DNA from: Ardenticatenales bacterium | Lineage (GTDB): Bacteria; Chloroflexota; Anaerolineae; Epilineales; Epilineaceae | NCBI GenBank assembly: GCA_020853525.1 | Contig: JADYYS010000037.1 | Location: forward strand, 1 to 64,000 | Direction of reading: 5' to 3' | Length of the DNA stretch: 64,000 nt | Shown here: positions 41,223-52,515 of the stretch, piece by piece | Layout: every line of letters begins with the position of its first letter | How positions within the stretch are numbered: the first letter of the stretch is position 1 | Position numbers and translations under genes: made by a program | The notes under the pieces: model-generated | Database searches by the model: none | The model's input: the letters and a program-made list of their open reading frames with translations, nothing else | What the model was told of the DNA's origin: nothing

Positions 41223-43451
41223 ATGGACACCGTCGATGCCCTGGAGCAGGAGCGCCGCCAGGCCAAGTTCCGGCAAGTGGAAGCCGAGTGGCGGCGCTGG
41301 CGCGAGGACCTGCCCCCGTCCGGGCCGGACAGGCCGACCGCCGCCGAGTTGACCGCGCTGCTGGACGAGCTTGCCCGGCAGCCTGACCTGGATCGCTTCC
41401 GACAGGCCTGGTCCGGCTGGGCCAGGCTGTCGGAGCCGTTTCCGAACGGGGGCCGGCGCCTTGCCCTCAACACGGCTCTGCAGCTGATGGCGAACGATCC
41501 GACCGCGTTCGAAATCCTCGTCGACGCACTGCGCCTTCCAACGGACGAGGACGAGGCTGCGGTCAAGATCCGCCGGCTCCACGAAACCGTGACCCGCCTC
41601 CGCCAGGGCAGTCAACCCGCGCCGAACATGATGCCGCTCATCCAGTCGACCTTCTGGAGCCGCCAGGCACCGGACGCGTGGCCGGCATTGTGGACGGACG
41701 GTGAGCTGATCCTGCAGCAATACGGCTGGCTCGCGTACGAGACGGAACCCGTCGCGCGCTACCTCACCTACCGCCGCGCCACGCGCGCTCTCGCGCCGTC
41801 GGCTACCCACGCAGCGGATGTACTCTCGTGGTACAGCGGCCACCACCCGTTCTGCGGATTGGATCTCTCGCTCGTCGAACGATGCCGGGAGAACGCCATT
41901 ACGCTGGGCGAGTGGCACGCGCGGAGCGGATACGCGTCCCCGGAGGACGAACGTGCGGCCGCAGGCAATGCCATCACGCTCCGCGCCGAGATGAACCTCA
42001 CCAACCTTGCCCTTCGACGGCGGATCGAGCTGGCGCTCGGGACCGATCTTCGTCAAGGGTCGATGTCCCTCGAGACGTCGACTTCGCCTGGCCGTCCGTA
42101 CCGCGCGGACGGATTCTGCGCGCTCTATTTCCCGTCGACCGGAGCGCCCGGCGCCCTGCATTCGCTGAGCTTTCGCATCTGGGTCACGCGTGACGGCGTT
42201 GCTGTGGGCCTCCACCCCAGCTGGGTGTCCGACAACTACAACCAGTCTGGTCAGGTAGCGGAGAGCCAGCTGCCGACCGATCTCTGCTTCATGCGGGTCC
42301 TCGGCCATGGCGAAGACGGTCGAATCGTGCCGGGTGATCGACGCTGGCCAGGCGGCCAGTTCCTCGTCGGCCGCTGGTTCCCCGGCACAACCGCGCTCGA
42401 CCGCGTCGACTTCGCGGATGACGTCGCAGGCGTTGCCGAGGCGCTCCGGCCAACTGCGGAGGCTCTCCTTGCCCTATCCCGCTCCGATGCTGAGCCCCCG
42501 GCCGACGTTTCGGACCCGACGTCGGACATCGATCCTGTCGCCACACTTGCCGATGACCTGCTCCTGGACCCCTCGTTCCTGGAAGACATCGTCGGCCTGC
42601 TGCGCGAGAAGCGCCAGATCATCCTCTACGGGCCCCCCGGCACCGGCAAGACGTACGTGGCCAAGCGGCTGGCCGAAGCGCTGGCGCCGGATGTGGAGCG
42701 GCGGATGATCGTGCAGTTCCATCCATCCACGAGCTATGAGGACTTCTTCGAAGGCTTCCGCCCGCAGTCGGACGGAGCAACCGGACTGAGCTACACCCTC
42801 GCACCCGGGCCACTTGCCCTCCTGTCCGAAGCTGCCCGCACACAGCCGGGCGACGAGCACGTCATGGTCATCGACGAGATCAACCGCGGCAACCTGCCCC
42901 GGATCCTCGGCGAGCTTCTCTTCCTCCTGGAGTACCGCGACGAGTCCGTCCGCACCCTCTATCGCCCGGACGCACCGTTCTCCCTGCCTCGAAACGTCCT
43001 CTTCATCGGCACGATGAACACGGCCGACCGCTCGATCGCCCTCGTGGACGCGGCGCTTCGACGGCGCTTCCACTTCATCCCGTTCTTCCCGCACGAGGGG
43101 CCGCTGGCCGACCTCCTACGCCGCTGGTTAGAACGAGAGCAGGGCCCGGTCTGGGTGGCCGATCTACTGGATATGGTGAACGCCGAGCTCCGCCAGCGCC
43201 TCGGCGGCCCGCATCTACAGGTCGGCCCAAGCCACTTCATGACCCAGAACCTGGACGAGGTGCGGCTCCGGCGCATCTGGGACTACAGCGTCTTCCCGTT
43301 CATCGAGGAACAGCTTTACGGCGATTGGGGCGCCGTTGACGCGTATCGGTTCGAAGCCGTCCACCGGCGCTTCCGCACAGAGTCCGAGATCGTAGGCGGC
43401 CCGCTCGAGGACGCGGTGTCGGGCGACCCCTGGGACAACGGCGAACCGTGA
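41223..43451 (+). CDS. mcrB: McrB-type AAA+ GTPase of a type IV restriction system
   Basis: A 742-residue protein. The N-terminal 430 residues should carry modified-DNA recognition but show no family I can name; FWSRQAPDAWPALW and LYFPSTGAPGALHSLSFRIW are notable conserved-looking segments. The AAA+ motor has LYGPPGTGKTYVAKRLAEAL (Walker A, about residue 470), QFHPSTSYEDFFEGFRP, VMVIDEINRGNLPRILGEL (Walker B, about 548), and FIGTMNTADRSIALVDAALR with RRFHF, the sensor and arginine-finger region of McrB. FHPSxxYEDF and the MNTADRS motif are specific to the McrB family. It overlaps mcrC by GTGA. Together they would cut DNA bearing a modified base, for example methylated phage DNA. Confidence 0.9.
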   Translation: MDTVDALEQERRQAKFRQVEAEWRRWREDLPPSGPDRPTAAELTALLDELARQPDLDRFRQAWSGWARLSEPFPNGGRRLALNTALQLMANDPTAFEILVDALRLPTDEDEAAVKIRRLHETVTRLRQGSQPAPNMMPLIQSTFWSRQAPDAWPALWTDGELILQQYGWLAYETEPVARYLTYRRATRALAPSATHAADVLSWYSGHHPFCGLDLSLVERCRENAITLGEWHARSGYASPEDERAAAGNAITLRAEMNLTNLALRRRIELALGTDLRQGSMSLETSTSPGRPYRADGFCALYFPSTGAPGALHSLSFRIWVTRDGVAVGLHPSWVSDNYNQSGQVAESQLPTDLCFMRVLGHGEDGRIVPGDRRWPGGQFLVGRWFPGTTALDRVDFADDVAGVAEALRPTAEALLALSRSDAEPPADVSDPTSDIDPVATLADDLLLDPSFLEDIVGLLREKRQIILYGPPGTGKTYVAKRLAEALAPDVERRMIVQFHPSTSYEDFFEGFRPQSDGATGLSYTLAPGPLALLSEAARTQPGDEHVMVIDEINRGNLPRILGELLFLLEYRDESVRTLYRPDAPFSLPRNVLFIGTMNTADRSIALVDAALRRRFHFIPFFPHEGPLADLLRRWLEREQGPVWVADLLDMVNAELRQRLGGPHLQVGPSHFMTQNLDEVRLRRIWDYSVFPFIEEQLYGDWGAVDAYRFEAVHRRFRTESEIVGGPLEDAVSGDPWDNGEP

Positions 43452-44692
43452 TCGCACCGGCGACACCTCCGGCGCCGTCCGCAGCGCCGACTGAGCGGCT
43501 CTCGCTCAGCGAGTACAACGAGCGAGAGGTTGTGCTCCGGCCCGACCAGGTGCGAGCCCTGTTGGCCGTGGGCCGTAACCGATTCGAGCTGCATCCCACA
43601 GGAGACGCCCAGACGTTTCGCCTGCGAGCGACCCAGCATGTGGGCACGGTAACCGTGCCCGGCCTCCAGATCCTCATCCGACCCAAAGTCCCGCTCGCCA
43701 ACCTCTTCTACATGCTCGCCGTTCCCGGCCCAAAGGAGACGTGGCAGGAAACGGACTTCGGCTACGGCGTCGAGCGCCAGCTCCTGCCTGCGTTCGCCAC
43801 GCTCTTCGCACGCGCTGTCGATCGAGCACTGGGGCGCGGCCCGCTGCGCGCCTATCGCCTGGAACATCAGCGCCTTTCGGCCCTCCGCGGCCGCATCGAC
43901 ATGGCCGTCCAGGTCCGCCAGCCGGCCATCGTGACACCGTTGCCATGCCGCTACGAGGACTTCACCGCCGACGTGATGGAGAACCGTGCGCTGCGCGCCG
44001 CCATCCGCCGCTTCCTGCGCCTGGCCGGCGTGCCGGATCGGGTGCGCGGCATCCTCCTTCACCAGCTTGCGCGGCTCGAGGATGTCGCCGACGAACTCGT
44101 GTCCCCGGACGCGGTCGATCGGGTCCCAATCACGCGCCTGAACCGCCACTACGCGCCTGCCCTCGGCCTAGCCTCGATCGTCCTCCGCGATACGACGCTC
44201 CTCACCGACGTTGGCCGCGCCGATGCCAGCGCGCTCCTCATCGACATGAACCGCGTGTTCGAAGCGTTCGTCGCCGACCGCCTCCGGCGGGCGTTGCAGC
44301 CAGCCCTGCGCGTCCGCGACCAGAGGCCAGGTTACCTGGACAACGAGCGTCTGGTATCCATGCGTCCCGACCTCGTATTCGAGCAGGATGGACGGCCCGT
44401 CCTCGTCGCGGACACGAAGTACAAGTTGACCGACGACGGCCGCGGCCGCGTCGGCGATTACTTCCAGCTGCTGGCATACACGACGGCCATGGGCCTTCGA
44501 GCCGGCTTGCTCATCTACTGTCATAGCGGCTCCGGGACGCCGCCGCGCGCGATCACCGTACGGCGGGGCGGGCAGCGGTTGTGGACGCAGGCGGTGAGAG
44601 TGGGGGGGACGCGGGCGGAGCTGGAGGAGGCCATGGTTCAGCTAGCGGACCTGGTTCGTGTGTTGACGCGCACCGACCGTCAGCTCGCTTGA
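43448..44692 (+). CDS. mcrC: McrC-type nuclease subunit
   Basis: A 414-residue partner of McrB. The N-terminal part (LSLSEYNEREVVLRPDQVRA, then RATQHVGTVTVPGLQILIRP and LPNLFYML-like ANLFYMLAVPG) matches the McrC family, as does EDFTADVMENRALRAAIRRF. The C-terminal PD-(D/E)XK nuclease site is visible as SMRPDLVFEQDGRPVLVADT followed by KYK, with Asp in RPDL and D-T-K as the acidic/lysine pair at about residues 308-324. It starts at a GTG inside the mcrB stop. This subunit stimulates GTP hydrolysis and makes the cut. Confidence 0.9.
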   Translation: MIAPATPPAPSAAPTERLSLSEYNEREVVLRPDQVRALLAVGRNRFELHPTGDAQTFRLRATQHVGTVTVPGLQILIRPKVPLANLFYMLAVPGPKETWQETDFGYGVERQLLPAFATLFARAVDRALGRGPLRAYRLEHQRLSALRGRIDMAVQVRQPAIVTPLPCRYEDFTADVMENRALRAAIRRFLRLAGVPDRVRGILLHQLARLEDVADELVSPDAVDRVPITRLNRHYAPALGLASIVLRDTTLLTDVGRADASALLIDMNRVFEAFVADRLRRALQPALRVRDQRPGYLDNERLVSMRPDLVFEQDGRPVLVADTKYKLTDDGRGRVGDYFQLLAYTTAMGLRAGLLIYCHSGSGTPPRAITVRRGGQRLWTQAVRVGGTRAELEEAMVQLADLVRVLTRTDRQLA

Positions 44693-46434: not shown

Positions 46435-46806
46435 ATGGACGAATCGACGTCGGAACGGGTCGTCCGCTTCCTGGTCGACCACGCGCGGTGCAACCAGTGC
46501 CGCGGCGCCTACCACGTCGAGAACGTCCACGTCCTGCACCAGAGCGGTGACCGCATCTGGGACCTGGCCGCCGTCTGCGAGCAGTGCTACGGCTTGGCGC
46601 TGATCCGCGCCGTCGTCAAGAGCGAGGACGGTCAGATCCACACCGAGCCCGTCGGCGAGCTTTCGAACGCCGAGCTGCGCCGCTTCGACCGGCTGCGGCC
46701 GATCGACCGCGACGACGTCCTCGACGCGACGGCCTTCCTGAGCGACTTCGACGGCGACTTCGAGCGCCTGTTTCAGAGCGGCGAAGCAGACGGGGTCGAC
46801 GCGTGA
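46435..46806 (+). CDS. Hypothetical zinc-ribbon protein
   Basis: A 123-residue soluble protein. Two CxxC pairs (ARCNQCRGAY near residue 18-24 and AVCEQCYGLAL near residue 47-53) separated by 28 residues form a probable zinc ribbon. The second half is charged (HTEPVGELSNAELRRFDRLR; DDVLDATAFLSDFDGDFERL) and resembles interaction segments rather than an enzyme. It lies 40 bases after rplI and its stop overlaps the next GTG start (GTGA). I do not recognise the family; a nucleic-acid or ribosome-associated role is only a guess from context. Confidence 0.7.
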   Translation: MDESTSERVVRFLVDHARCNQCRGAYHVENVHVLHQSGDRIWDLAAVCEQCYGLALIRAVVKSEDGQIHTEPVGELSNAELRRFDRLRPIDRDDVLDATAFLSDFDGDFERLFQSGEADGVDA

Positions 46807-49800
46807 CCGCGGCGCACCACCGCGCGTTCGGCGCGCTCGCCGCCGTCGGCCTTGCGCTCAGCATGGCCTCCGGCGTCGTTGCGCAGCCCGTCGCCCCTCA
46901 ACCCGGGGGCCCGACCGCGATGGGCGATCCGGGCAGCAGCCGCCTGATCGGCCGTGTCACGGACATCGTCACCGGCCGCCCGCTGGCCGGCGTGCGCGTG
47001 CGCGCCGGCGAGGCCGACGGCCGCACGGACAACGACGGCGTCTATCGCCTCAGCCTCCCGCCCGGCGCCTACCGCATCCGTGTGACATCGCCGGGCTACC
47101 AGGGCGTCACCGTCGTCGAGCGCGAGCTCGACCCGCTCATCGGCGACGGCGAGGCGCGCGTCGACGTCGCGCTGCCGCCGCTCGTGGCCGACGCGAGCGA
47201 TGCCCGCAAGGTCGTCGACACGATCCGTGGGCGCGCTGCGCTCACCGCCACCGTGCCCGTGACGACGACGAGCGTCGAGGATGTCGGAACCGAGGACGCC
47301 GACCCGCAGCGACTGGCCGCTTCGCTCGCGGTCAGCGAGGTGCCCGCCACGATCCGCGTCCTCATGCCGGAAGGCCAGATCGTCGCTCTCGACACGGATG
47401 AGTACCTCAAGGGCGTCGTCCCGGCCGAGATGGGCTGGATCTTCCGGCGCGCCTTCGAGGCGCTGAAGGCGCAGGCGATCGCCTCCCGAACGTATGCCGC
47501 CGCGCACTGCCTGCCGACCTCGGCCGGCGACCCGGCGGTCTGCGAGCGCGGCCTGGACGCCAACGTCGACACCACGACGCGCACCCAGGTCTGGCGGCCC
47601 GTCCACTACGACATCACGGACGCCGCCGTCGAAGCGACGAGCGGTCTCGCCGCCCGACTGGACGGCGCCCTCTTCAGCACGATGTACTTCGCCCGGACGG
47701 TGAACCGTACGCTCGACAGCGAGGCCAGCCCGTGCTGCGGCGGCCGCAGCGTGAGCTTCCTGCGCTCCGTCGCCTCACCCGACCCGTTCGATGCCCGCCA
47801 CGGGCACGGCGCCGGCCTCAGCCAGGAAGGCGCCGCCGTCCTGGCTGAGTGGGGCGCAACGGCCGAGGAGATCATCGCCTACTACTATACGGGCGCCTCC
47901 GTCGCCGCCGACCCGTCCGCGGCCGCCGCGGCGCGCGGCGCAGTCGAGCCGGCGGACGAAGGGTCGCCCTCGACCGACGCCGGACCCTCCGCCGACGCCG
48001 ATGCCGGGCCGACCGACGATGCGACCGACGATGCGGACGACGCCGACGGCGCTTCGCCTGCAACCCGCGCCGGCACCGCCCGCCTCGATGCCGACCGCTT
48101 CGGCGAAGTGGAGCCCGGATCGGTCACGGCCGTCGACGCGCTCGCGATCCGATCGTTGACCGCCGATGCCGACGTCTCCGCCGATGCCGACGACCCTGCG
48201 GAACGCGAGATCGTCGACAGCCCGACCGTCCGAGCCGACTTCCCGTTCATGGCCCTGGCGGTCCGCTGGACGGACAATCCGACCGCCGGCGAGGCCGTCA
48301 CGGCCACCGCCGCGGTCACGGCGGCCACGGCAACGCCGTCGACCGGTGACGTGTCGGCGCCGGAGGGGGAAGCCGATGCGTCGGACGAACCCCGCGGCGA
48401 CGTCCTCGTCCGCGTGAGCGATGACGGGGAGACGTGGTCCGACTGGCTGCCGATGCTGCCGGACGAGGACGGCCGATCGCGTTCGGCGGACAACTGGACG
48501 CGGCTCGTCGTGGCCCGTGGGCGCTATGCGCAGCTGCGGATCGTGTTCAGCGGACCGGCGGACGTCCGCGCCTTCGACCAGCTCGACCTGCACTACTTCA
48601 ATGCGGACGCCGGCCCGCGCGCGCCGATCGTGCCGGCCTCGGAAGCGCTGAACGACGTGTCGGCATCGTCCGACCGCGACCTCACCGCCGCCTCCATCGA
48701 GGACACCGTCATCAAACGCGCCGGATGGGGCGCCGACGAGCAGCTGCGCTTCCAGGGCGGCGACGAGATCTGGCCGCCCGAGTACACGATCCCGAAGGCG
48801 CTGATCATCCACCACACCGTCACGCAGAACGACCCGGTCGACCCGGCATCCGTCATGCGGGCGATCTACTACTTCCACGCCGTCACGCGCGGCTGGGGGG
48901 ACATCGGCTACAACTTCCTGATCGACCACCGCGGCAACGTGTACGAGGGCCGGTTCGGCGGCGAGCGGAACGGCCGGATCACGCAGGGCGGCCACGCATT
49001 GCAGTTCAACACGAACTCGATCGGCGTTGCGCTGCTCGGCACGTTCACCGACGTCCGGCCCCCGGCCGCCGCCGAATCGGCGCTCGTGTCGTTCTGTGCC
49101 GCCAAGGCCTTCCGCTACCGCGTCGACCCGCAGGCCGGCGTGACGCTGCTCGGAACGCGCTTTGCCCACGGCCTGATGGGCCATCGGGACGCGTTGCCCG
49201 GCCACACCGCCTGCCCCGGCAATGCAGCCTATCCCCGCATGGACGCCATCCGCATCGGTGTCGCGGCGCTCCTCGGCGAGCTGGGCGGCCAGCCGACGGC
49301 TTCGCACACGCCGCCGCCCACCGTCCGCCCGACGGCCACGCCCACCCGCCGACCCACCGCCACCGCGACGCGCGGCGCGACGACCGGCGCCACCGCGCCG
49401 CCCGCCTCGACCGGCGTGCCGACCCCGCCCGCCGGCTGCAGCGACGGGATCGCGAACGGCGGCTTCGAGGCCGAGGGGGATGCCTGGGTCTTCAACCGCT
49501 CGGCGCGCACGCGCTGGGACGTCCTCGCCGGCCTGCAGGCTGCGTTCGTCGGCCTTCGCAACGACGACCCGGACAACGGCACGACGTACGCTTCGATCGT
49601 CCAGACCGTCCCGTTGCCGGCCCGCATCGACCGCGCCACCCTTCGCTTCGCGTTCCGGTCCACGGGCGATGATGCCGATCGCCGCCTCGTACGGCTGATG
49701 GACGGCCAGGGTCGCGTCGTGGCGCTCGGTGACGTGAGCCTGCCGGCCACGACGCCGGGCTGGACCGTCCGGAGCTTCGACGTCGGCGCGGCGCTCGCCC

Positions 49801-50807
49801 CGCTCGTCGGCCAGCCGCTGCGCGTCTACTTCGGCGTCGTGAACAACGGCGACGGCCGGCGCAGCTACGTTCGGTTCGACGAGGTACGCCTCGAGATCTG
49901 CCCCGGTCCGGGCGGTCAGACCGTCGATCCGACCGCCGCGGCGTCCGCCACCACGGCGGCCACCCGAACGGCGCCGCCGTCCGCGACGCCCAGTGTCGCC
50001 CCGCCCAGTGTCGCCCCGCCTCGCCCGACCGCAACGCGCACCGCCGGCTCAGGGCCGACGCCGACACGGCCGGGAGCGGCCGTCATGTGCGCCCCGTGGT
50101 TCGCGGACGGCGGCTTCGAACCGCTGACGGCCAGTGTCGCCGGGGCGCCGCCGGCATTGTCGGCGGAGACGGCCGCGCTTTCGGCAACGTCGGCCATGTC
50201 GGCGACGATGGCCGCTTCTGCGACGACGGCCGCTTCTGCGACGACGGCCGTTTCCGCGACGACGGCCACGACTGTGACGACGGCCGTTTCCGCGACCGCC
50301 TCGGGCGAGGGCGTCCTCGGGCGCTGGCGGCCCGGCGGCGACCTGCCGGTCTCGGTCCAACGCGGCACGGCGCATGGCGGCGTTGCCGCAGCGCGGCTCG
50401 GACCGGAACCGGGTGGGGCGGACCGGTTCGGCTACGCGTCGCTCGCGCAGACCGCCACGCTGCCGCTCGGCATCACGTCGGCCGACCTCCGGCTCTGGGT
50501 CCGCCCGGATCCGCTCGCCGGCGGCGACTCCTTGTCGATCGAGATCCGCCGCCCGCACGACGGCGTGCGACAGGTGCTGGCGCTCCCGACGGGCGGGCTG
50601 CCCGCGGGTCGCTGGACGGAGCTGCACCACGCCGTCGACGCGGCATCCCTCGGGACGGCCGTCGAGGTGTACGTCGCGCTCCTCAACCGCCGCCAGTCCG
50701 AGGCGCCGGCCGCGTCGGTGGTGTGGGTCGACGACATCGGCTTCGACATCTGCTATCGCCCATCGCCGACGATCGCCGTGCCCTTCCTGGCCGTCGAACG
50801 ACCCTGA
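46803..50807 (+). CDS. Secreted multidomain wall hydrolase: CarboxypepD-reg, SpoIID, PGRP amidase, two lectin-like domains
   Basis: A 1334-residue protein with a signal peptide (residues about 5-28, ending SGVVAQ). Residues 38-105 are a carboxypeptidase regulatory-like beta domain (GRVTDIVTGRPLAGVRVRAG). Residues 175-360 are SpoIID: DEYLKGVVPAEMGWIF with its Glu, EALKAQAIASRTYAAAHC, and HGHGAGLSQEGAAVLAEWG. Residues 635-830 are a PGRP/amidase domain with zinc ligands in LIIHHTVTQ (about 667), MGHRDALPGH (about 794) and TACPG (about 802), plus WGDIGYNFLIDHRGNVYEGR. Two beta-sandwich, carbohydrate-binding-like domains start near residues 880 and 1100, separated by Thr/Pro linkers. SpoIID is a lytic transglycosylase for peptide-free glycan, and the amidase removes peptides, so both steps sit in one chain. 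Starts at GTG overlapping the previous stop. Confidence 0.88.
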   Translation: MTAAHHRAFGALAAVGLALSMASGVVAQPVAPQPGGPTAMGDPGSSRLIGRVTDIVTGRPLAGVRVRAGEADGRTDNDGVYRLSLPPGAYRIRVTSPGYQGVTVVERELDPLIGDGEARVDVALPPLVADASDARKVVDTIRGRAALTATVPVTTTSVEDVGTEDADPQRLAASLAVSEVPATIRVLMPEGQIVALDTDEYLKGVVPAEMGWIFRRAFEALKAQAIASRTYAAAHCLPTSAGDPAVCERGLDANVDTTTRTQVWRPVHYDITDAAVEATSGLAARLDGALFSTMYFARTVNRTLDSEASPCCGGRSVSFLRSVASPDPFDARHGHGAGLSQEGAAVLAEWGATAEEIIAYYYTGASVAADPSAAAAARGAVEPADEGSPSTDAGPSADADAGPTDDATDDADDADGASPATRAGTARLDADRFGEVEPGSVTAVDALAIRSLTADADVSADADDPAEREIVDSPTVRADFPFMALAVRWTDNPTAGEAVTATAAVTAATATPSTGDVSAPEGEADASDEPRGDVLVRVSDDGETWSDWLPMLPDEDGRSRSADNWTRLVVARGRYAQLRIVFSGPADVRAFDQLDLHYFNADAGPRAPIVPASEALNDVSASSDRDLTAASIEDTVIKRAGWGADEQLRFQGGDEIWPPEYTIPKALIIHHTVTQNDPVDPASVMRAIYYFHAVTRGWGDIGYNFLIDHRGNVYEGRFGGERNGRITQGGHALQFNTNSIGVALLGTFTDVRPPAAAESALVSFCAAKAFRYRVDPQAGVTLLGTRFAHGLMGHRDALPGHTACPGNAAYPRMDAIRIGVAALLGELGGQPTASHTPPPTVRPTATPTRRPTATATRGATTGATAPPASTGVPTPPAGCSDGIANGGFEAEGDAWVFNRSARTRWDVLAGLQAAFVGLRNDDPDNGTTYASIVQTVPLPARIDRATLRFAFRSTGDDADRRLVRLMDGQGRVVALGDVSLPATTPGWTVRSFDVGAALAPLVGQPLRVYFGVVNNGDGRRSYVRFDEVRLEICPGPGGQTVDPTAAASATTAATRTAPPSATPSVAPPSVAPPRPTATRTAGSGPTPTRPGAAVMCAPWFADGGFEPLTASVAGAPPALSAETAALSATSAMSATMAASATTAASATTAVSATTATTVTTAVSATASGEGVLGRWRPGGDLPVSVQRGTAHGGVAAARLGPEPGGADRFGYASLAQTATLPLGITSADLRLWVRPDPLAGGDSLSIEIRRPHDGVRQVLALPTGGLPAGRWTELHHAVDAASLGTAVEVYVALLNRRQSEAPAASVVWVDDIGFDICYRPSPTIAVPFLAVERP
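50202..50298 (+). repeat. Coding minisatellite of 18-bp units
   Basis: Tandem units related to GCGACGACGGCCGCTTCT encode SATTAA-type hexapeptides (AASATTAASATTAVSATTA). They sit inside the linker of the SpoIID/PGRP protein. Nearly identical copies suggest recent expansion. Confidence 0.7.
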
Positions 50808-50815
50808 ACGCCGGC

Positions 50816-51763
50816 GTGCCCGCACCGCTCCCGCCGGTATCGCCCCACTTCTACTCGGCCCGCCTGCTGCAGGCGATGGCCGGCGGTGATCACGCGCGGT
50901 TCCTGGCCGACGGCGGGCGCGGGCTGCGGCCGCGCCTGGCCCGCGCGCTCGAGCTCGCCGCGATCGAGCCTGGGCAGACCGTCGTCGATCTGGGCTGCGG
51001 CCGCGGCGAGGCGGCGGCGCACGCCGCCCAAATGGGCGCGGCGGTCGTCGCGCTGGACTACAGCCTCGATGCGCTCCGACTGAGCGGAACCACGGCCGCC
51101 GTCGTGGCTCCGCTCGGCGACGTCGCCCCGGCCGCCGCCGACGCATCGAACCTGCCGCTCTCCGACGGCTGCGCCGATCGGGTGCTCTGGCTCGACGTCA
51201 TCGAGCACCTCCACCCGTGGCAGGTGCGGGCGACGCTGGCCGAGGTGCGACGTATCCTGCGGCCGGGCGGCTTCGTCGTCATCCATACGCTGCCCAACCG
51301 CTGGGCGCTGCGGGTGGCCTATCCGCTGCTGCGCGCCGTCGCACCCTCCCTGCCCGCCAGCCCGCGCTCGGCGTACGAACGGGCCGTGCACGTGAACGAG
51401 CAGTCGCCGCTGTCGCTCAAGCGGGCGCTGACGGCCGCCGGATTCGCCAGCCGCGTTTGGGTCGAGGAATGGTCGACGGTACAGGCCGGGCGACAGGCTC
51501 TGGACGGTGGGCAGGTTCCGGACAGTGAGCAGGTTCCGGACAGTGGGCAGGCTGTGGACGGAGGACCGTTTCTGGAGGAAGGACTGTCGGGTGATCGCTT
51601 TCCTGACCCGCAACGGACAAGGGGCTACCCGGCGCTGCGGCGCCCGGCAGTCCGCCTTGTGGCGGCCGGCGCGATGCGGACGCCGCTGCGGTGGTGGGTC
51701 GGCAACGACATCTTCGCCGTCGCCCGGCCGGATCGGGGGCATTTCGTCAGCCCGACCCGTTGA
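50816..51763 (+). CDS. SAM-dependent methyltransferase (class I, small-molecule type)
   Basis: A 315-residue cytoplasmic protein. The SAM-binding fold is clear: QTVVDLGCGRGEAAAHAAQM (motif I), VVALDYSLDALRLS, ADASNLPLSDGCADRVLWLD (the methyltransferase-11 pattern), VIEHLHPWQVRATLAEVRRI and LRPGGFVVIHTLPNRWALR. The C-terminal part contains a hexapeptide repeat insertion (QALDGGQVPDSEQVPDSGQ) and ends with GNDIFAVARPD. The substrate is unknown; lipid or cell-envelope glycan precursors are usual for this group. The GTG at 50816 follows the wall hydrolase by 8 bases; a Met at about codon 22 is an alternative. Confidence 0.8.
   Translation: MPAPLPPVSPHFYSARLLQAMAGGDHARFLADGGRGLRPRLARALELAAIEPGQTVVDLGCGRGEAAAHAAQMGAAVVALDYSLDALRLSGTTAAVVAPLGDVAPAAADASNLPLSDGCADRVLWLDVIEHLHPWQVRATLAEVRRILRPGGFVVIHTLPNRWALRVAYPLLRAVAPSLPASPRSAYERAVHVNEQSPLSLKRALTAAGFASRVWVEEWSTVQAGRQALDGGQVPDSEQVPDSGQAVDGGPFLEEGLSGDRFPDPQRTRGYPALRRPAVRLVAAGAMRTPLRWWVGNDIFAVARPDRGHFVSPTR
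51494..51565 (+). repeat. Four 18-bp in-frame repeats in the methyltransferase gene
   Basis: Four tandem units begin CAGGCTCTGGACGGTGGG, CAGGTTCCGGACAGTGAG, CAGGTTCCGGACAGTGGG and CAGGCTGTGGACGGAGGA. They encode QALDGG, QVPDSE, QVPDSG and QAVDGG and interrupt an otherwise ordinary fold. Confidence 0.75.
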
Positions 51764-51788
51764 CGCGGCCCGGCCCGTCGGGTACGAT
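51760..51788 (+). promoter_or_regulatory. Promoter of the ECF sigma / DUF5667 operon
   Basis: TTGACG (51760-51765) and TACGAT (51783-51788) are 17 bases apart. The -35 overlaps the stop codon of the methyltransferase. About 170 bases of leader precede the sigma factor GTG. Confidence 0.65.
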
Positions 51789-51966
51789 AGGTTCGTCTCA
51801 CAGCTGCGTCGGCCGAGCGCCGGATGCCCCACCCCACCACTACCCTTCTACGGCATCACACTGCCTCGCCCGCTGCCCTTCCGCCCGCCCGGCGTTAATG
51901 CAACGTTTAGGCGGGGCCGTATCCGGGCCGAATCTCCACCCGTTAACACTTGCAAGGAACCGCGCC

Positions 51967-52515
51967 GTGCAGGATGAGCACGATCTGGTCCGTAAGGCAC
52001 AGGACTACGATCCCGAGGCCTTTGGCGAGATCTACGAGCGGTACTACAACGGTGTATACCGATATATCTACTATCGGGTCGGGGAGCAGACCTTGGCCGA
52101 GGATCTCACGATGGAGGTCTTCGTCAAGGCGATGGAGGCGATCGACACCTACACCTTCCGTGGGGTGCCCTTCTCGGCTTGGTTGTATCGGATCGCCAGC
52201 AACCTTGTGGTGGATCACTTCCGGCGTCAGCCGATGCAGGGAGCGGTCTCGCTGGAAGAGAAGCTGGTGGCGTCGATGGAGATGCCGGCCCAGGCGCTCG
52301 AAACGGAGTTTGCACACGACGCGCTCCGGCGGGCGCTGGCGGAACTCACCGACGACCAGCAGCAGGTGGTGATCCTCAAGTTCGTGGATGGGCTGAGCAA
52401 CCTGGAGGTCGCTCAGATTCTGGGAAAGACTGAGGGGGCTGTGAAGTCGCTTCAGCATCGCGCGCTTGCCTCGTTGGGGCGGGCACTGGGGGAGCAAGGT
52501 GAAATTCCAGTTTGA
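51967..52515 (+). CDS. ECF-type RNA polymerase sigma factor
   Basis: A 182-residue sigma-70 family factor. Region 2 spans about residues 8-80 (FGEIYERYYNGVYRYIYYRV, then DLTMEVFVKAMEAIDTY and FSAWLYRIASNLVVDHFRRQ, holding the -10 reading helix). Region 4 spans 120-172 (ALAELTDDQQQVVILKFVDG, LSNLEVAQILGKTEGAVKSL) with the helix-turn-helix for the -35. There is no region 1 or 3, so it is ECF type. The ribosome site AAGGAA lies 7 bases before the GTG. It overlaps the DUF5667 gene by 17 bases, the usual arrangement of an ECF factor with its membrane-linked regulator. Confidence 0.9.
   Translation: MQDEHDLVRKAQDYDPEAFGEIYERYYNGVYRYIYYRVGEQTLAEDLTMEVFVKAMEAIDTYTFRGVPFSAWLYRIASNLVVDHFRRQPMQGAVSLEEKLVASMEMPAQALETEFAHDALRRALAELTDDQQQVVILKFVDGLSNLEVAQILGKTEGAVKSLQHRALASLGRALGEQGEIPV

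Follow-up and report, generated by a model that had tools for sequence, protein, structure and literature searches.

A SpoIID domain and a PGRP-type amidase domain in one predicted secreted protein of a Chloroflexota bacterium, and the ftsZ neighbourhood of unfused relatives

The fusion gene and its domains

The window analysed here is a stretch of 64,000 nucleotides from the genome of an Ardenticatenales bacterium (Chloroflexota). It harbours a gene, read as one open frame from a GTG start, whose product of 1334 residues combines a SpoIID domain with a PGRP/Amidase_2 zinc amidase domain (Table 1). The GTG start is backed by a GTGA overlap, in which the stop codon of a small upstream frame and the start codon of the fusion gene lie. 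This small frame (46435-46806, +) encodes a protein with two CxxC motifs, a relative of which is also found just upstream of the fusion gene of another locus, L069.

Table 1 Features of the fusion gene in the window
Feature	Position	Strand	Basis
SpoIID-PGRP fusion gene, 1334 aa, predicted secreted	46803..50807	+	open frame; GTGA overlap
Apparent signal peptide, ~aa 1-28	46803..46886	+	by eye: hydrophobic stretch, then VVA-Q
CarboxypepD_reg-like domain, aa 49-106	46947..47120	+	PF13620 E 6e-12
SpoIID lytic transglycosylase-type domain, ~aa 181-371	47343..47915	+	PF08486, TIGR02669, model vs 5i1t
E209 codon, aligned with catalytic E101 of C. difficile SpoIID	47427..47429	+	alignment, 5txu chain numbering
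Middle beta domain before PGRP, ~aa 469-599	48207..48599	+	strands in model
PGRP/Amidase_2 zinc amidase domain, ~aa 632-819	48696..49259	+	PF01510; model vs 2rkq
H670 codon, presumed zinc ligand (IHHT)	48810..48812	+	kept in 26/26 fused proteins scored
H794 codon, presumed zinc ligand (GHRD)	49182..49184	+	17/17 Chloroflexota fusions
C804 codon, presumed zinc ligand (TACPG)	49212..49214	+	17/17 Chloroflexota fusions
First C-terminal repeat, ~aa 895-1050, possibly carbohydrate-binding	49485..49952	+	beta-rich in weak model
Second C-terminal repeat, ~aa 1105-1330, Ala/Thr-rich insert	50115..50792	+	alignment

The initial annotation had recognised a SpoIID domain and a PGRP-type amidase domain in one chain of this length, and the open frame, the profile matches and the structural model all bear this out. 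Residues 192-281 match Pfam family PF08486 with an E-value of 4e-13 (50.2 bits, cut-off 23), and the SpoIID_LytB profile TIGR02669 of NCBIfam is matched with an E-value of 1.7e-30 (106.9 bits, cut-off 83.3). The equivalog profile for stage II sporulation protein D proper, TIGR02870, gave 78.9 bits against a cut-off of 234.75. The amidase part (aa 664-807) matches Amidase_2, PF01510, with an E-value of 8e-16 (59 bits, cut-off 26), and its matches to solved animal PGRPs reach 3e-20. An AlphaFold2 model covering aa 165-832 has a mean pLDDT of 72; per block of ten residues the values are mostly 84-95 in the PGRP domain and uneven, from 45 to 95, in the SpoIID domain. The model resembles C. difficile SpoIID (5i1t; Z 23.4, rmsd 1.9, 180 aa) as well as PGRP-SD (2rkq; Z 20.6, rmsd 2.0, 159 aa). 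A chance pairing of weakly matching domains is ruled out by these profile scores and structures.

The remaining parts of the chain are less well characterized. A relative of the CarboxypepD_reg stretch precedes SpoIID in all 17 other Chloroflexota fusions listed, and a relative of the middle beta domain precedes PGRP in the unfused proteins encoded in the clusters described below. No fold match for this middle domain was found in the model-based searches, but as PGRP and SpoIID took up the results, this negative carries little weight. The linker after SpoIID is of low complexity, and that between PGRP and the C-terminal repeats is rich in Thr and Pro. Two lectin-like domains had been proposed at the C-terminus; the two repeats are indeed weakly related to each other, and a lectin-like nature is plausible for them. 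They match no Pfam family at E-values up to 1, and the model of the first repeat, mostly beta strands, is of low confidence (pLDDT 61.6). Foldseek returned weak matches for it, among which CBM4, CBM35 and CBM61 modules, and these prove little.

The host genome (4.27 Mb, 96.85% estimated completeness) contains one SpoIID match and two FtsZ matches, one of them strong and the other weak. A search for SpoIIP (PF07454), positive in the B. subtilis control, gave no match in this 96.85% complete genome. The earlier expectation that the host forms no spores is supported to this extent, SpoIIP being the one sporulation-specific gene searched. Amidase_3 also gave no match in the host genome. It is absent from 5 of the 8 genomes with the unfused cluster as well, but since all 15 other fused genomes of the host's class have at least one Amidase_3, the fusion is not a general substitute for this enzyme. 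Among the neighbours of the host fusion gene, those for McrBC, a methyltransferase and a sigma factor could be recognised. Upstream, the region 41223-44692 (+) encodes an AAA ATPase and a McrBC component, likely a McrBC-type restriction pair; on the other side, in the downstream part of 50087-52515 (+), a methyltransferase domain and a sigma-70 family factor are encoded directly 3' of the fusion gene. No relative of FtsZ or MraZ, and with it no link to division genes, was found within the window.

Active-site residues and spread of the fusion

The host protein carries H670, H794 and C804, which we take to be zinc ligands by analogy with T7 lysozyme and PGRPs, together with Y703, presumably also part of the PGRP/Amidase_2 active site. 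E209 of its SpoIID domain aligns with Glu 101 of the C. difficile chain 5txu. Residues were scored in 26 fused proteins, 17 from Chloroflexota, 8 from Patescibacteria or of unstated lineage and 1 from Actinomycetota; the protein of L070 was left out. The SpoIID Glu and Arg, and the first His and the Tyr of PGRP, are kept in all 26. The second His was found by script in 25, the exception (L154) having this position outside the aligned stretch, but the His is present in a separate alignment. The zinc Cys is kept in 24 of the 26 proteins; L128 has Tyr instead, and L154 has the Asp of a DPG motif, which we take to be an AmpD-type third ligand. The SpoIID domain of the window protein lacks the two Cys residues with which C. 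difficile SpoIID binds zinc; similar Cys residues are present in L074, L078, L082 and L084.

Loss of the SpoIID Glu or of the PGRP ligands in homologues had been named beforehand as evidence that one domain is inactive. No such loss was seen in Chloroflexota: the Glu is kept in 26/26 proteins and all PGRP zinc ligands in 17/17 Chloroflexota fusions. Exceptions among the nine proteins from elsewhere are the Cys positions of L128 and L154. Judged by these residues, inactive domains appear to be ruled out for the 17 Chloroflexota fusions scored.

Both domains occur in one frame in at least 16 of 199 genomes of the host's class, the host included, in at least 29 of 286 Patescibacteria genomes (among which G698, with a stop inside a match) and in at least 2 of 246 Actinomycetota genomes, one being the centre genome. 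The counts for the class and for Patescibacteria each also include a centre genome that was chosen because it is fused. Several frames in the host's class are incomplete. The fusion of G305 is cut at a contig end, and the frames of G304 and G323 run to the contig end. Not counted among the 16 are G306, also cut by a contig end, and G472, probably a broken fusion, in which PGRP and SpoIID lie in overlapping frames. An assembly chimera is ruled out, as fusion frames were found in at least 16 genomes of the class, with SpoIID domains that for the most part cluster according to family. No PGRP was seen in the stretch examined for about 20 of the 34 genomes in which SpoIID was matched.

In a SpoIID tree, all 18 Chloroflexota fusion rows and the fragments of G472 and G306 form one clade (91/89, below the level starred by the tool), consistent with a single SpoIID-PGRP fusion event in Chloroflexota. 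The PGRP tree places fused and clustered rows in a shared clade (92/87) with an unresolved base, and the cut, long-branched L070 falls among the clustered rows. A PGRP clade of Chloroflexota fusions of their own was thus not recovered, fused and clustered rows being mixed.

The reverse order, with PGRP first, was found in all 29 listed Patescibacteria fusions and at loci L113, L123, L126 and L154. The seven reverse-order rows of the SpoIID tree, some of unstated lineage, form a clade of their own (99/92). The opposite domain orders and the separate SpoIID clades therefore indicate independent fusions. In the Gracilibacteria locus L144 (5818-7479, +) PGRP and SpoIID read as one frame with translation table 25, in which TGA encodes Gly. 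Both matches lie within ~2 kb of each other in the Actinomycetota genomes G861, G915, G922 and G1011, among the matches listed, and at L118, L121, L127, L134 and L177 of this phylum the two genes are side by side or overlapping. SpoIID is circularly permuted in these five Actinomycetota loci, in L128 and in one Chloroflexi locus, L112, the part with GHGxGM...HYY coming before the part with the catalytic Glu. The survey of homologues suggested in the initial annotation thus did reveal conserved pairing: as a clade in Chloroflexota, in the opposite order in Patescibacteria and as neighbouring genes in some relatives.

The unfused pair and its ftsZ neighbourhood

Among the matches listed, 19 genomes of the host's class have PGRP and SpoIID on separate genes. 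In 8 of these the two genes are co-oriented and 4.5-8.2 kb apart. The others are G371, with the genes on opposite strands 7.5 kb apart, G472 with its overlapping frames, and nine genomes whose two genes lie on separate contigs. Each of the 8 co-oriented pairs has an ftsZ gene between PGRP and SpoIID, as read directly at L079, L188-L191, L193 and L194 and derived from coordinates for G364. The seven loci read also harbour MraZ (6/7), DivIVA-like (6/7), LysM (7/7) and LCP (5/7; L193 ends early) genes. The order at L188 is DivIVA-like, a match under the Pfam cut-off, followed by MraZ, PGRP, FtsZ, two LysM proteins, SpoIID, an unknown protein and LCP. The eight genomes belong to four families (f85, f88, f114 and f118) and do not represent eight independent cases. 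Six of them (G310, G336, G364, G388, G422 and G452) have another FtsZ elsewhere that scores higher; in G365 this other FtsZ is partial and in G337 none was found. The ftsZ of the cluster is thus usually a lower-scoring second copy, which means that the process it serves may be a specialised one.

No relatives of FtsZ, MraZ or LCP were found in the window or in the Chloroflexota fused loci examined, some of which were ended by contig ends. A septal role of the fusion protein consequently rests on its unfused relatives. Common neighbours scanned at the Chloroflexota fused loci are Sir2, endonuclease V, a weak cellulase match, a phosphodiesterase and a LysM-FecR protein, and those at the reverse-order loci are tetrapyrrole methylase, pilin-like, TsaD and Mur ligase proteins. 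Two of the 8 reverse-order loci, L130 and L154, have an LCP gene in common, as well as a gene that in L130 encodes a Mur ligase. L113 and L126 also share neighbours, in L113 with a prepilin-like N-terminal methylation motif.

Proposed function and comparison with known systems

The ftsZ context of the unfused relatives had been missed in the initial annotation, and it shifts the likely role of the protein to the septum or to wall remodelling. The reading that we consider somewhat favoured is that the protein is secreted, is targeted to the wall and hydrolyses peptidoglycan in two steps, most likely to remodel the septum or the wall; its activity, the order of action and a septal location are what we infer. 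The PGRP zinc amidase would remove stem peptides from MurNAc, after which the SpoIID domain would cut the bared glycan by a Glu-dependent activity. The fusion would put the second enzyme next to the product of the first, and the remaining domains probably anchor the chain on the wall. Peptidoglycan would in this way be dissolved at the septum or during wall remodelling, with one chain taking on the tasks that SpoIIP and SpoIID share in engulfment and that have been proposed for AmiA and SpoIID at the septum of chlamydiae. The initial annotation had proposed that the fusion would couple the two steps on the same glycan strand. The conserved residues and the recurrent pairing agree with coupling; action on the same strand stands as a proposal. 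For C. difficile, SpoIID is described as requiring prior activity of SpoIIP on peptidoglycan, with E101 as an essential residue (PMC6221140). Chlamydial SpoIID is described as septal, and AmiA allows its digestion of peptidoglycan in vitro, while some activity on intact peptidoglycan is reported too (PMC6635528). A partner amidase is therefore not strictly required everywhere.

General wall turnover or recycling, with no septal role, is a rather unlikely alternative that overlaps with the two-step reading. It would fit the position of the fused gene among unrelated genes in the host's class and the lack of any tie to division in the host. Against it stand the ftsZ gene found between the unfused pair in 8/8 co-oriented clusters and the septal location of the chlamydial relative (PMC6635528).

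The main rival to the reading preferred here, slightly less probable still, is that the SpoIID domain has no glycosidase function of its own and serves as an in-cis enhancer of the amidase domain, the role that LytB (CwbA), a SpoIID-domain protein, has towards wall amidases in B. subtilis. LytB is given as a protein that does not hydrolyse peptidoglycan, and in the title of a reference cited there CwbA is described as stimulating the lytic amidases of the wall (PMC10653849). An enhancer would be expected to pair with an amidase just as well. However, the catalytic Glu and Arg, kept in 26/26 proteins as aligned, would argue against such a role, though not decisively, and so would the predicted fold, which is close to that of the active C. 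difficile enzyme.

In our judgement it is improbable that the protein is exported as a weapon, or for scavenging, to lyse other bacteria, its C-terminal domains serving to bind the wall glycans of foreign cells. The large size of the secreted protein and its possible carbohydrate-binding repeats would suit this role. So would the reverse fusion in at least 29/286 genomes of Patescibacteria, cultivated members of which are described as living on other cells, and the shared neighbours of L113 and L126 with the pilin-like motif in L113. On the other hand, the unfused forms are clustered with ftsZ, mraZ and LCP genes, as would be expected of a housekeeping wall enzyme, and the 20 neighbour frames scanned, a small sample, contained none that could be recognised as immunity-like. 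The ftsZ context of the relatives makes a lytic weapon less likely, although the Patescibacteria proteins may have such a role. A phage endolysin was rejected, as seven viral contigs match the PGRP part only.

Beyond the two-step hydrolase itself, it may tentatively be speculated that PGRP amidase and SpoIID make up a recurrent septum-dissolving module of bacteria that form no endospores, and that the amidase-then-SpoIID engulfment of sporulation is a specialised descendant of a division step. If this were true, the module would be found around an ftsZ copy in some Chloroflexota, where it was fused once as SpoIID-PGRP, with a separate PGRP-SpoIID fusion in Patescibacteria and another, with a circularly permuted SpoIID, in Actinomycetota.

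Both domains and the two-step logic are already known. Among the titles and abstract openings listed by a survey with limited terms, none describes the SpoIID-PGRP fusion, the two opposite domain orders or the neighbourhood centred on ftsZ, an absence that carries little weight. One of the closest parallels is the SpoIIP-SpoIID (DMP) complex, in which an amidase is followed by SpoIID acting on denuded glycan, with a SpoIID of the same family and an aligned catalytic Glu. Unlike in that complex, the amidase here is of the PGRP/Amidase_2 type, both domains are in one secreted chain and the host has no SpoIIP match. The PGRP and T7-lysozyme-type zinc amidases share the fold and the zinc ligands with the window protein; in the latter, however, a chain of 1334 residues combines this amidase with SpoIID and other domains. 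In B. subtilis the SpoIID-domain protein LytB is likewise paired with an amidase, LytC, an Amidase_3-type enzyme. In contrast to the fusion protein, LytB and LytC are separate proteins, and hydrolysis of peptidoglycan is reported to be lacking for LytB (PMC10653849).

Chlamydial SpoIID and AmiA also combine SpoIID with an amidase in a bacterium that does not form spores, with a proposed role in division; they are separate proteins there and one chain here, and the residue tested as important in chlamydial SpoIID is an Asp (PMC6635528). The amidase fused to SpoIID provides a named partner for SpoIID outside the spore formers, and that the two were fused repeatedly, and in opposite orders, strongly suggests that they act together. 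An ancestral division role of SpoIID has been proposed in the Discussion of the chlamydial study (PMC6635528), and the PGRP-ftsZ-SpoIID cluster together with the fusions makes such a role directly testable.
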